NCBI RefSeq assembly: GCF_002160495.1
Contig: NZ_NFKR01000008.1
Coordinates: forward strand, 1 to 64,000
Direction of reading: 5' to 3'
DNA: 64,000 nucleotides
DNA from: Erysipelatoclostridium sp. An173
Lineage (GTDB): Bacteria > Bacillota_I > Bacilli_A > Erysipelotrichales > Coprobacillaceae
Shown piece after piece: positions 11,693 to 16,254 of this stretch (its first letter is position 1; each line of letters begins with the position of its first letter). Both the position numbers and the translations under genes were made by a program. A model generated the notes under the pieces. It had not been told where the DNA came from and searched no databases. It saw only the letters and a list, made by a program, of their open reading frames with translations.

Positions 11693-12853
11693 ATGAACAA
11701 CTTTAAAATGACTAATATGCCTAAAGTTTATTTTGGACAAGGGGCTTTAAAAGAAGCTCTAAATACTGAATTAAAAACAGTAGGAGATAACGTATTATTA
11801 GCTTATGGTGGCGGATCTATTAAGAAAACTGGAATTTATGATGAAGTTGTCACTTTACTTAAAGAAGCTGGTAAAAATATTTTTGAATTTAGTGGTATTA
11901 TGTCTAATCCAACTTATGCTAAAGTCTTAGAAGGGGCTAAAATTGTTAAAGACAATCAAATTGATTTTATTATCGCTGTTGGTGGTGGATCAGTTATTGA
12001 CTGTTGTAAGATTGTTAGTGCCCAAGCTAAAGTTGATCAAGATATTTGGCAAATGGAATTTGTTGATGGAAAATTACCAACTGAATTTATTCCAATGGCA
12101 GCTGTTACAACAGCTTCAGGAACTGGATCAGAAATGAATAATGGTGCTGTTATTACTAACGAAGAATTAAAAATTAAAGCCGGAATGTTAGGAGCTTTAT
12201 CAAAGTTTGCTGTATTAGATCCAGCTTATACATTAACAGTCCCAATGAAACAAGTTGTTTCTGGAGCTTTTGATACATTAAGCCATGCAATGGAAACATA
12301 TTTTGGAAAACCGCTTGAAAACAATGTTTCTGATGAAATCAATGAAGCAATCATGCGTAATACTATTAGAAATATTAGAGCAGCAATTAAAGAGCCTCAA
12401 GATATTCAAGCTCGTAGTGAATTAATGTGGGATTCAGCAATGGCTGAAAATGGTATTTTAAAATTAGGAAAAGTAACTGATTTCCAAGCTCATCAAATTG
12501 AACACCAATTAGGAGCTTATACTGATTGTAATCATGGTCAAGGATTAGCAGTAATTCATCCAGTATTATATCGTCATATTTATGAAGCAGGAGTTTCTAA
12601 ATTTGCTCGTTTTGCTAAAGAAGTATGGCATGTAGATGATACTAATTTAACTGAAAAAGAAACAGCTTTAAAAGGAATTGAAGCATTAGCAGATTTTATT
12701 AAAGAAATTGGATTACCAACTACTTTAACACAAATGAATATTACTGATGTAGATATGCTTAAAAAAGTAGCAGATTCATCTAATATTACAGCTGGATGCT
12801 GTAAACAATTAAGCCATGATGAAATTTTCGAAATCTTAAAAGAATGTCTATAA
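11693..12853 (+). CDS. Iron-containing alcohol dehydrogenase (butanol dehydrogenase/YqhD-like)
   Basis: A 386-residue group III alcohol dehydrogenase. The dinucleotide-binding GGGSVIDCCK lies near 97-106. The metal ligands expected for the family are seen: D194 and H198 (GAFDTLSHAMETYF), H267 or H271 (QAHQIEHQLGAY) and H281 (CNHGQGLA). It reduces aldehydes to alcohols, usually with NADPH, in the cytoplasm. It is the last gene of the redox cluster; unlike its neighbours it has no export signal. It may detoxify aldehydes in the same stress response as the flavodoxins. Confidence 0.93.
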   Translation: MNNFKMTNMPKVYFGQGALKEALNTELKTVGDNVLLAYGGGSIKKTGIYDEVVTLLKEAGKNIFEFSGIMSNPTYAKVLEGAKIVKDNQIDFIIAVGGGSVIDCCKIVSAQAKVDQDIWQMEFVDGKLPTEFIPMAAVTTASGTGSEMNNGAVITNEELKIKAGMLGALSKFAVLDPAYTLTVPMKQVVSGAFDTLSHAMETYFGKPLENNVSDEINEAIMRNTIRNIRAAIKEPQDIQARSELMWDSAMAENGILKLGKVTDFQAHQIEHQLGAYTDCNHGQGLAVIHPVLYRHIYEAGVSKFARFAKEVWHVDDTNLTEKETALKGIEALADFIKEIGLPTTLTQMNITDVDMLKKVADSSNITAGCCKQLSHDEIFEILKECL

Positions 12854-12983
12854 AAATATCGAATTTGTCTCAAATTTATATAATTGCAGTATCAAAAATA
12901 TCAATATCAAATTATAAATAAGCTAAAAATATTGATAAAATTTAGATAAAAGACAAAATTTATTACAATTTATTAAATCTTTA

Positions 12984-13060
12984 TTCCCTGGTGCTTGCTT
13001 TACAACTAAATTGGTAAATGATAAGATAAAGCCAAGGAAAGCGAATATTCTATTTTCTCA
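12984..13060 (+). promoter_or_regulatory. Candidate structured leader element upstream of the adhesin
   Basis: Within the 371-base gap before the adhesin, CTTG-CTTT (12994-13001) can pair with AAAGCCAAG (13028-13036) with one bulged C, enclosing a possible small TAC/GTA hairpin. A purine-rich stretch (GGAAAGCGAA) follows, then the terminator at 13061. Aptamer-like structure followed directly by a terminator is the usual riboswitch layout. No known class was recognised. The bases from 12854 to 12983 are AT-rich with no feature I can name. Confidence 0.35.
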
Positions 13061-13084
13061 AAGTACCCGTTCGGGTACTTTTTT
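13061..13084 (+). terminator. Strong hairpin terminator in the adhesin leader
   Basis: AAGTACCC pairs perfectly with GGGTACTT around GTTC, then a T run. It is 208 bases after the dehydrogenase stop and 140 before the adhesin start, so it may control readthrough into the adhesin. Confidence 0.85.
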
Positions 13085-13156
13085 AATTATCAAATACTTT
13101 AGTTATTGAATTTCGTTTTTCTAAAAGAACAGTTTATAGAAAGAGGGGAATAAAGA

Positions 13157-13192
13157 TGTTTTGTCGTGATCCTTGTTTAAAAGCATTATAAA
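13157..13192 (+). CDS. 11-codon leader peptide overlapping a terminator
   Basis: AGAGGGG at 13144-13150 stands seven bases before an ATG that encodes MFCRDPCLKAL and a TAA at 13190-13192. The last four codons and the stop form the left arm and loop of the terminator at 13180-13203. Ribosome position on this frame would therefore decide whether that hairpin forms: the geometry of translation-coupled attenuation. Two cysteines, an arginine and a proline lie in the first seven codons. I know of no matching named leader peptide. Confidence 0.5.
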
Positions 13193-13203
13193 ATGCTTTT
13201 TTT
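13180..13203 (+). terminator. Attenuator-like terminator overlapping the leader peptide
   Basis: AAAAGCATT (13180-13188) pairs perfectly with AATGCTTTT (13193-13201) around a 4-base loop, followed by more T. It sits 22 bases before the adhesin start and overlaps the end of the leader peptide frame. Confidence 0.75.
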
Positions 13204-13224
13204 ATTTTAAGGAGGAAAGTTAAA

Positions 13225-16200
13225 ATGATAAGGTTGAAAAAAAGAAATAAGAAATTGTTTAAAATAATAATTTCTTTACTAATGGTTTTTAGTTGCCTTT
13301 TAACAAGTATTAATACTATAAATGCCGCTAGTTATACAGGACCATTTACCCGCGTTAAAGAACTTGATTATCCAGAATGGTGGGCAAGGAAATTAGGCGT
13401 TAAACAGTGGAGTACCTGGATGTGTACTTTTAATGGGCAATGGTCTTACTGCCTGGAATCAAGTAAAAATAGTCCTAGTTCTGGTAATAAGACAGCTGAA
13501 GAATTAGTAAACTCTAATGAAATGATTAGTAAGCTGCTTTACTATGGTTATGGGGGACCGGCTGCTTTAGAAGGACAGCTTGATGGTAGTGGTACAGGAC
13601 TAGAAGGTGATGGATTAACAGCACCAGAAACCCATTATCTTTATACTCATGTTTTATTATCAATTGCTTATAGTGGTGATATGATGGGTGTTGATTTGGA
13701 TGGATTAGAAACTTTAGGAATCGGATTAAAAGGGTTATATAATTATATAGCTAGTTTACCAATGCCAGTTAGTCCAACTTTAAGTGATTCTTTCACTGCT
13801 AGTTTTGATCCAGCTACTAAATTACAAAAGACTAATACAGTTACTTTCAACGGGGCTAGTAATGCAGTGATCAATGTTACTTTACAAGATGGGGTTACTC
13901 TTCATAATGTGACTACTAATGCTTCTGAAACTGGAACTGTCAGTGTTAGTGGTGGTCAAAGTTTTTATTTAACAGCACCATTAAGTGTAACAGAAGATTA
14001 TACTAGTGGTAATATTGCCGGTAGTAATTGTACTCGTTTTGTACCGCTAGCAATTTATGGCAGTGGTAATACCCAGACTCATGGCAGTTATACTTATGAT
14101 GTTGCCAATTTAACATATCATGTTGATTGGATCGATACTGGTCGTTTAGAACTTAGTAAAACTAATACAAATAATGATTTGATTGATGGAGCTATCTTTA
14201 ATTTAAAATCAATTAGTTTTGAAGGTTATGATGAAAACATAACGGTTACTAATGGTAAATTAGTAGTTGAAAACTTACCAATTGGAACATATGAGTTAAA
14301 AGAAATTAGCGCTCCTGATGGTTATTTATTAAATAGTACAACTTTTGCAGTTACGATTAATAAAGATGAAACAGCCAGTCAAAGTGTTAGTAATGAAGAA
14401 CCATTAGGTAAGTTAGAATTAACAAAGAAAATTGATACTAGTAAAACTGATGGTAAATCAGGTGATAGTTATTTAAAAGGTAATGAATATCAATTGATTG
14501 CTCGTGATGATATTACCAACCAGGCTAAAACAATTACATATTTTAATAAAGGTGATGTAGTTGCAAAGGGAATAACTGATGAACAAGGGCAGATAACTTT
14601 TGATAATTTACATGTGGGTAAGTATTATCTTCATGAAAGTAAAGCTAATGATACTTTAGTATTAAATCCTAATGATATTAATGTTGATATAAATTATCAA
14701 GGTCAAACCGTTTCTAAAATTTTAGAAACCAAAGAAACAGCTAATAGAGTAAACATGCAAAAAATACAGGTTCATAAATCTGGGGAAAAAGAAGGGATAA
14801 GTGGTTTTGTTAAAGGTTTACAAGGCTGTGAATTTACGTTCAAACTTAAAAGTGAAGTTGATAATGTTGGCTGGGATAATGCTAGTGTATATGATGTAAT
14901 TACTACTGATGAAAACGGTCGGGCAGCAACTAAATATTTGCCATATGGTACGTATTTAGTTAAAGAAACTAAAACACCGCAGGATTATATGACAGCTCCT
15001 GATTTTTTAATTGACATAACAGATGATTATAGTGAATATAGCGATATTGATCAGATAAAAACTATCGATATTAATAATCGTCCTTACACTACGCAATTAA
15101 AATTAGTTAAGCGTGATCAAAAAACTAATCAAATTGTAACTTTAAGCAGTGCTTCATTTAAAATTAAAGCTAAAGAAGATATTGTTTCTAACGGTAAAAT
15201 AATATATCACGCTAATGATACTATTGTTCAAAAAGTTAGTGGTAAAAACTATGACACTTTTACTACCAATAGTGATAATGTTATTGTAAATGATTCATAT
15301 AGTAATCATGATAATGATCGCGGAACAGTAATTTTACCATTACAATTAGATCCCGGTAAATATTATCTTGAAGAAGTAAAAACGCCAGAAGGCTTTTTGG
15401 CTCTAGAAAGTCCAATTGAATTTACGATTGAAAACATTCGTGATTATACAACAGATGAAGATGGTGATCCAATTTTAGAAATCAATGTAGTTAACGATAC
15501 TCCTAGTGGTAAACTAACAGTTATTAAGAAAATTGATTTAGGTGAAGGTGATACTAGTCGGGTAAATATCCAGGATTTATCACCAATTAAATTTAGGTTA
15601 ACAGCTAACAGTAAAATAGTTTCTCCAATTGATGGTAGTGTTATTTATGATCAAGGTGATGTTGTTGGTGAATATAATTTATCATCAGATGGCAATTTAA
15701 CGATTGAAAACTTACCATTAGGAACAGGTCAAGTAGAATATCAACTTGAAGAAATTGCCACTTTACCAGGTTTGGTTCTTGATGAAAAAAAACATATCGT
15801 TGCCTTTGAGCAAAATGATACGACAACCAAAGTTTATAGTCATGAATTAGAAATTGAAAATCAGATTACTAAAGTAGAAGTATTGAAATTAGATAAAGCT
15901 AATAATCAAGGTCTAGCAGGAGCTAAATTACAAATTCAAGACCAGGATGGAAATATTATTGATCAATGGCAGTCTGATGGAAGTGGTCATTTGATCCAAG
16001 GATTAGTAGTGGGACAAGAATATAAATTAATTGAAACAAAAGCCCCTGATGGATATCAACTTGCTAGTGAACTTACTTTTACGGTTGAAAATACTACTGA
16101 AGTCCAAAAAGTTATCATGTATGACCAGGCAATAACCGCTGTTAAGACTGATGATACTGTTTCATTTGATCATTTAATAGTTATTACTTTTAGTAGTGGA

Positions 16201-16254
16201 TTGTTATTGATAGTTTTAGTTTTAAAAGGTTATTTAGCTAAAAAAGAAAATTAA
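13225..16254 (+). CDS. Surface adhesin: thioester-like domain and six SpaA/Cna-B repeats
   Basis: A 1009-residue surface protein. Residues 1-35 are a signal peptide ending near NAAS. Residues 40-175 resemble the thioester domain of Gram-positive adhesins (cysteines in WMCTFN, C67, and SYCLES, C76; LLYYGYGGP; then ETHYLYTHVLLSIAYSG). Where canonical domains have TQ, this has TH at 141-142. After an Ig-like linker (190-300), six SpaA/Cna-B repeats run from about 308 to 965. Each has a Lys in its first strand and a YxLxE-type Glu (YELKE, YYLHE, YLVKE, YYLEE, YQLEE, YKLIE), so self-made isopeptide bonds are likely. A C-terminal helix and KKEN tail form a membrane anchor, but there is no clear LPxTG. 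Confidence 0.9.
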   Translation: MIRLKKRNKKLFKIIISLLMVFSCLLTSINTINAASYTGPFTRVKELDYPEWWARKLGVKQWSTWMCTFNGQWSYCLESSKNSPSSGNKTAEELVNSNEMISKLLYYGYGGPAALEGQLDGSGTGLEGDGLTAPETHYLYTHVLLSIAYSGDMMGVDLDGLETLGIGLKGLYNYIASLPMPVSPTLSDSFTASFDPATKLQKTNTVTFNGASNAVINVTLQDGVTLHNVTTNASETGTVSVSGGQSFYLTAPLSVTEDYTSGNIAGSNCTRFVPLAIYGSGNTQTHGSYTYDVANLTYHVDWIDTGRLELSKTNTNNDLIDGAIFNLKSISFEGYDENITVTNGKLVVENLPIGTYELKEISAPDGYLLNSTTFAVTINKDETASQSVSNEEPLGKLELTKKIDTSKTDGKSGDSYLKGNEYQLIARDDITNQAKTITYFNKGDVVAKGITDEQGQITFDNLHVGKYYLHESKANDTLVLNPNDINVDINYQGQTVSKILETKETANRVNMQKIQVHKSGEKEGISGFVKGLQGCEFTFKLKSEVDNVGWDNASVYDVITTDENGRAATKYLPYGTYLVKETKTPQDYMTAPDFLIDITDDYSEYSDIDQIKTIDINNRPYTTQLKLVKRDQKTNQIVTLSSASFKIKAKEDIVSNGKIIYHANDTIVQKVSGKNYDTFTTNSDNVIVNDSYSNHDNDRGTVILPLQLDPGKYYLEEVKTPEGFLALESPIEFTIENIRDYTTDEDGDPILEINVVNDTPSGKLTVIKKIDLGEGDTSRVNIQDLSPIKFRLTANSKIVSPIDGSVIYDQGDVVGEYNLSSDGNLTIENLPLGTGQVEYQLEEIATLPGLVLDEKKHIVAFEQNDTTTKVYSHELEIENQITKVEVLKLDKANNQGLAGAKLQIQDQDGNIIDQWQSDGSGHLIQGLVVGQEYKLIETKAPDGYQLASELTFTVENTTEVQKVIMYDQAITAVKTDDTVSFDHLIVITFSSGLLLIVLVLKGYLAKKEN

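Follow-up and report, generated by a model that had tools for sequence, protein, structure and literature searches.

Ribosome-controlled attenuation of genes encoding surface structures has been described in Streptococcus gallolyticus, in which the pil1 and pil3 pili are governed by a leader frame and a terminator located before the pilus gene (PMC3894217). In the case of pil1, leaders with a stop codon lying in the terminator or 4 bp before it give high pilus expression, those ending at least 28 nt upstream give a low or mixed profile, and expression is low and uniform when the leader start is lost (PMC3894217). This system is phase-variable, via GCAGA repeats and the length of the frame. Among the nascent peptides that arrest ribosomes, those of the RQH type stall with the third residue of the four-residue motif (R/Q/H)-(A/G/D)-(P/G/S)-(P/G) in the P site, and arrest at a proline preceding the stop codon is also known in other uORFs (PMC10987492). 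The RQH uORFs monitor secretion or membrane insertion; they carry N-terminal localization signals and precede sec or yidC genes (PMC10987492). CruR (CXXC plus RAPP, copper; PMC9426467) and CutF (copper-binding plus Pro-rich motif; PMC9973294) are uORF products in which a cysteine pair and an R/P motif of the nascent chain control the expression of the downstream genes. TIE_pLS20 is a class II thioester adhesin with a thioester domain (TED) and a Cna/SpaA-like stalk; it belongs to a conjugative plasmid, and no leader or terminator is mentioned for it in its description (PMC8092201).

The window analyzed here is a stretch of 64,000 nt from Erysipelatoclostridium sp. An173 (contig NZ_NFKR01000008.1), the congeners of which are named Thomasclavelia. 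It carries a gene encoding an adhesin of the same type as TIE_pLS20, which is flanked by chromosomal metabolic genes instead of plasmid genes. Between the upstream neighbor, an iron-type alcohol dehydrogenase gene, and the adhesin gene lie, in this order, a probable promoter, a first terminator (T1), a leader Shine-Dalgarno (SD) sequence, a leader frame, a second terminator (T2), and the adhesin SD (Table 1). An SD-led short frame overlaps an intrinsic terminator located 24 nt upstream of the adhesin gene. The SD, the 11 codons, the perfect 9-bp stem and the inclusion of the last codons in the hairpin, all reported in an earlier note on this DNA, were confirmed; the leader stop also falls inside T2. 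Since only two of the nine pairs of T2 are G-C, this hairpin was missed by a stricter scan requiring at least three G-C pairs, while other scans find it.

Table 1. Features identified between the alcohol dehydrogenase gene and the adhesin gene of the window.
Feature	Position	Strand	Remarks
Iron-type alcohol dehydrogenase gene	11693-12853		Upstream neighbor of the adhesin gene
Probable promoter of the adhesin transcript	12999-13027	+	TTTACA - 17 nt - TAAGAT, extended -10 TG; sigma-70-like
First terminator, T1	13060-13081, or 13060-13090 in a wider delimitation	+	AAAGTACCCGTTCGGGTACTTT TTTAATTA; conserved in G004 and G008
Leader SD	13143-13149	+	GAGGGGA; direct reading; region conserved in G004
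Leader frame, MFCRDPCLKAL* (11 codons)	13156-13191	+	ATG 13156, stop TAA 13189-13191; ATG TTT TGT CGT GAT CCT TGT TTA AAA GCA TTA TAA
C-R-D-P-C motif of the leader	13162-13176	+	Motif Pro codon (Pro6) 13171-13173
Proposed attenuator terminator, T2	13179-13203	+	5' arm AAAAGCATT 13179-13187, loop ATAA 13188-13191, 3' arm AATGCTTTT 13192-13200, T-run to 13203; conserved in G004 and G003
Adhesin SD	13209-13215	+	AAGGAGG; direct reading; T-run/SD join as in T-box attenuators of the genus
Adhesin gene (1009 aa)	13225-16254	+	Signal peptide, thioester domain (TED_2, E 2e-24), SpaA-type repeats

We consider it likely that this feature is a translation-controlled transcription attenuator of the thioester adhesin gene, in which translation of the leader would switch the adhesin on. 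RNA polymerase would start at about position 13034, upstream of T1, pass T1, and then transcribe the leader frame and T2. If a ribosome has reached Pro6 or a later codon when T2 emerges, the 5' arm would be masked, T2 would remain unfolded and the adhesin gene would be transcribed. If the leader is not translated, or if the ribosome has left or is delayed at an early codon, T2 would fold and transcription would stop. The conserved C-R-x-P-C residues would serve as a pause or arrest motif holding the ribosome at the place where the hairpin is masked. We infer that the leader frame is translated, that T2 terminates and that the ribosome antiterminates, while arrest of the nascent chain at R-x-P, like the nature of any signal, is speculative. 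The arrangement resembles that of pil1 and pil3 in that a leader frame and a terminator precede a surface adhesin or pilus gene and in that the ON state is predicted when the stop codon lies within or beside the hairpin; it differs from pil1 in that the 11 leader codons include no tandem repeats and the residues are conserved. The statement of the earlier note that this geometry is not normally associated with a surface adhesin is wrong, since pil1 provides an experimental precedent.

The geometry alone is weak evidence, since an SD-led short frame also ends on one of the 20 other intergenic terminator-like hairpins in the window. It is the comparison with homologous adhesins that decides against chance. 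A pattern search for C-R-[DES]-P-C frames was carried out on 43 genomes of the same family, and the matches were checked for frame. Six SD-led ATG or GTG frames with CR[DES]PC were obtained (the window, G004, two in G003, one in G002, and one in G005), and all six are located directly upstream of TED adhesins; the other in-frame matches fall inside long coding frames, opposite such frames, or at an unrelated hairpin. In G004, which belongs to the same genus and carries an adhesin showing 76% identity, the frame MFCRDPCIKHC* lies over the hairpin at the same place. The more distant adhesin homologs, which were found by searching with the N-terminus of the adhesin, are preceded by MSIYNCRDPCFKQL... 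and MFGCRDPC* in G003, MFRCREPC... in G002, and MRYYCRSPC... in G005. The codons of the motif vary among the six leaders (Arg CGT or AGA; Pro CCT, CCC, CCA, or CCG; third residue GAT, GAG, or TCT), so that it is the peptide rather than the DNA that is conserved. The hairpin arms show compensated changes, GCATT/AATGC of the window being replaced by GCAACT/AGTTGC in G003. When 60 genomes were searched at the DNA level with the leader, one true ortholog was retrieved; the remaining matches examined were rejected, as they consisted of the terminator-SD join shared with T-box genes. More generally, 16 of the 24 family homologs have a terminator hairpin on which an SD-led frame ends, compared with one of the 20 other terminators of the window; one of the 16 frames (that of G012) is the tail of the preceding gene. 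The view, put forward in the earlier note, that this is the geometry of ribosome-controlled attenuation is supported.

Other leaders were found before homologous adhesins. Frames of the type KW[IV][FL]xP* precede 11 further homologs in Faecalibacillus, T. cocleata, and relatives. A search of the family for KW[IV]FxP* gave 12 matches, 10 of which lie outside coding sequences and are all KW leaders, the other two being inside coding sequences; the eleventh leader is KWILGP* in G018c. Their stop codons lie between -5 and +1 nt relative to the hairpin (GACAATC-GAAA-GATTGTC, for example). In the adhesin tree, the homologs with KW leaders form one clade, which includes L077, those with CRxPC leaders occur in three places, the long-branched G005 being uncertainly placed, and G008 nests with the window and G004. 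In Lachnospiraceae, the leaders are R-[DE]-x-P micro-ORFs: MIRDRP*, MRIRDEP*, MNRIRDEP*, MHIRERPT*, MIRDKPESC..., and MHW[IS]RDRPHP.... When 26 genomes from Lachnospiraceae and related groups were searched for the R-[DE]-x-P-stop pattern, most matches were out of frame or coding, and the in-frame intergenic matches examined were adhesin leaders. Plasmid-like or ICE-like genes lie alongside the Lachnospiraceae TED adhesins whose context was examined.

The fact that the residues are conserved suggests that the peptide itself matters, C-R-x-P-C most likely serving to pause or arrest the ribosome. The possibility has to be weighed, however, that any translated frame ending on the hairpin suffices, the peptide being inherited without being functional, in which case the switch would read the capacity for translation initiation only. 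This narrower form of the explanation preferred here, which does not exclude it, is possible but rather unlikely. The homolog with the closest adhesin, that of G008 (L074/L037; 81% identity), has in place of the CRDPC leader a four-codon frame, MMAT*, which follows the SD GAGGTGA and lies just before a terminator hairpin differing from that of the window; a hairpin preceded by an unrelated mini-frame fits pure ribosome occupancy. In L077 the frame MKIKNKFRYLKRR* ends in a hairpin, and pil1 also operates through frame length (PMC3894217). On the other hand, pure occupancy predicts zero residue conservation, whereas the residues of CR[DES]PC and KW[IV][FL]xP* have been kept while the codons changed, in front of adhesins that are only about 40% identical over the N-terminal 300 residues. 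A conserved small frame with CxxxC upstream of homologous adhesins had been proposed in the earlier note as a check, and it was found in five other genomic copies; the adverse case named there, a hairpin with no conserved frame, occurs once, in G008. No such leader was found at the genus homolog G002a or at the distant homologs G016, G013, and G028.

The spacing between motif and hairpin is compatible with the arrest of a ribosome at the proline. Counted from the start of the motif Pro codon to the final nucleotide of the terminator 5' arm, the distance is 16 nt in both the window and G003a and 15 nt in G004; the ten KW leaders that were measured give 11-15 nt. The usual toeprint reach is +15/16 from the P-site codon. 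According to a per-codon masking calculation, a ribosome with Pro6 in its P site would mask 8-9 nt of the 9-nt 5' arm of T2, while a ribosome at leader codons 1-3 would cover none. The masking position is defined on geometrical grounds only, and three CRxPC leaders are outliers: the distance from the motif to the end of the arm is 59 nt in G002b and 44 nt in G003b, and no hairpin with a U-run was found between the CRSPC motif and the adhesin start in G005. Downstream of the latter leader (L164), a terminator-like hairpin, AAGTCACTG-ttagttg-CAGTGACTT followed by TTATTTT, was observed inside the start of the adhesin coding sequence.

Pro6 is the third residue of R-D-P-C, and its spacing agrees with the stall position of the RQH peptides (PMC10987492), which is suggestive. 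The likeness extends to the R-x-P-type motif and, in the KW and IRDxP* leaders, to the Pro-stop. R-D-P-C fits positions 1-3 of the RQH motif, position 4 being Cys and not Pro or Gly, while the RDSP of the Lachnospiraceae leader L103 fits it fully. In contrast with the RQH uORFs, the leaders described here carry R-D-P-C, R-D-x-P, or KWxFxP*, are usually only 6-14 residues long and precede adhesins; neither a localization signal nor a sec or yidC context was found for the 11-residue frame of the window. An argument against the arrest part of our explanation is that the known RQH-type peptides need upstream nascent-chain residues, which a six-residue chain does not have. As regards CruR and CutF, the cysteine pair with an R/P motif is a lead only, because these are long exported proteins, unlike the CRxPC leaders. 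In addition, CruR works through Rho, and 45 residues separate its Cys motif from its Pro motif, whereas here C-x-x-x-C brackets R-x-P within five residues; no metal gene occurs near the window leader. The KW...P* leaders recall TnaC and other leader peptides stalled at a Pro-stop. The spacing from W to P is 12 residues in TnaC, however, versus four in the KW leaders, and no tna genes accompany the latter. R-x-R or R-x-K was observed within many of the R-D-x-P leaders (L104, L108, L099, L102, L106, and L119); the +x+ pattern, to which both belong, is known for macrolide-dependent ribosome stalling. It may tentatively be proposed, although this extension is more doubtful than not, that CR[DES]PC, KW[IV][FL]xP*, and IR[DE]xP* are convergent, very short arrest peptides gating thioester adhesins in gut Firmicutes, including those of conjugative elements, and that the C-x-x-x-C version could respond to a metal, to the thiol redox state or to a ribosome-binding drug.

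The earlier note had suggested the supply of cysteine or arginine as a possible signal, alongside ribosome stalling. An uncharged tRNA, whether for Cys, Arg, or Trp, would stall the leader ribosome and set termination, and Cys codons 3 and 7, Arg codon 4, and the single Trp of the KW class could be read in this way. This is improbable, since the leader includes no codon run, the terminator would stay intact during a stall at Cys3, and these residues are not shared among the sister classes. If Cys were limiting at codon 3, the edge of the ribosome would lie near 13174 and the entire 5' arm would be free; starvation at Cys3 or Arg4 would leave all nine pairs free and would lead to termination. 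The KWxFxP* and IRDxP* leaders have no Cys pair, no amino acid is common to the leaders of the homologous adhesins, and it is the Pro-stop and R-x-P that are conserved. Nor were the features of trp/his-type starvation attenuators found: there is no competing antiterminator in the folds, and the downstream gene is non-biosynthetic. Using Rfam with gathering and relaxed thresholds, no riboswitch or known cis-regulatory RNA was identified in the leader; the T-box model gave no match there either, and only the terminator-SD join is common to the T-box genes. The adhesin attenuator and the terminators of the T-box leaders of the genus (L031, L032, L033, and L004) share the same terminal GCTTTTTTTATTTTAAGGAGG join.

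Equally little credit can be given to translational coupling, in which the leader ribosome would re-initiate at the adhesin SD or unmask it, the hairpin being incidental. The leader stop is about 34 nt from the adhesin ATG in the window, one minimum-energy fold pairs the leader CCUUG with the adhesin SD, and re-initiation from leader frames can raise translation (PMC4833913). However, the gap between hairpin and adhesin reaches about 200 nt in the KW leaders, the SD pairing is lost in a slightly longer fold of the window and in the fold of G004, and the hairpin with its T-run is kept in most of the homologs. Pairing between the leader and the adhesin SD was dropped as a candidate, as the Pro codon CCC of G004 weakens it and the fold shifts with the length of the sequence. 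Lastly, a chance frame over an ordinary terminator is hardly credible and appears refuted as far as sequence comparisons can refute it: about one in 20 of the window terminators does carry such a frame, but the peptide is conserved in six CRxPC and eleven KW leaders limited to one gene family.

Literature searches yielded no report of CRxPC, KW, or R-D-x-P adhesin leaders. The mechanism would be of a known kind, while the leader-peptide family, its link with thioester adhesins and its distribution across two orders appear to be new. Ribosome-controlled antitermination, exemplified by one pilus system of Streptococcus, would be extended to a broad family of adhesins, with candidate arrest peptides of only 6-14 residues. 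The regulation of adhesins in commensal Erysipelotrichales and Lachnospirales has been little studied, and a conserved leader-peptide switch before thioester adhesins is a directly testable control point.

Several other elements were observed in these regions. Between 12999 and 13090 in the window, the promoter is followed within about 30 nt of the probable transcription start by the strong terminator T1 (GTACCC...GGGTAC), on which no short frame ends. The same promoter arrangement has been kept in the orthologous regions of G004 and G008, and T1, conserved in all three genomes, may represent a second attenuator or a short RNA. The block 12966-13040 was considered as an aptamer and rejected, since the conserved block reads as a promoter once G008 is added. 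Downstream of the terminator of the KW or RYLKRR leaders and before the adhesin SD, a conserved GGT-nn-stem-loop-stem-TATAAA(A/G)CC element is present (L042, L043, L041, L045, L055, L039, L040, and L077), often followed by AGAGAAGTA.

In Lachnospiraceae, an H-type pseudoknot was observed in L099 (2208-2270), L102, L103, L113, and L106, between the R-D-x-P micro-ORF and the adhesin gene or overlapping them. It consists of two interleaved, perfectly paired stems of 8-13 bp, the sequences of which differ between loci (stem 2: CCCATAGCC/GGTTGTGGG, TTTCCTTGACC/GGTTAAGGAAA, and TTCCCATAG/CTATGGGAA, for example), and it is followed by a terminator in all these loci except L106. No Rfam match to it was obtained in the loci scanned, and it seems to be a structured leader RNA, so far undescribed, that belongs to ICE-type adhesin genes. 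A plasmid search also detected distant TED adhesins in Bacillus and Listeria plasmids. Directly upstream of several adhesins (L078, L080, L083, and L085), there is a gene for a membrane-anchored protein with a Cys-containing C-terminal tail (...YKCNLHGGEYNS...CGSSYSQYG, for example).
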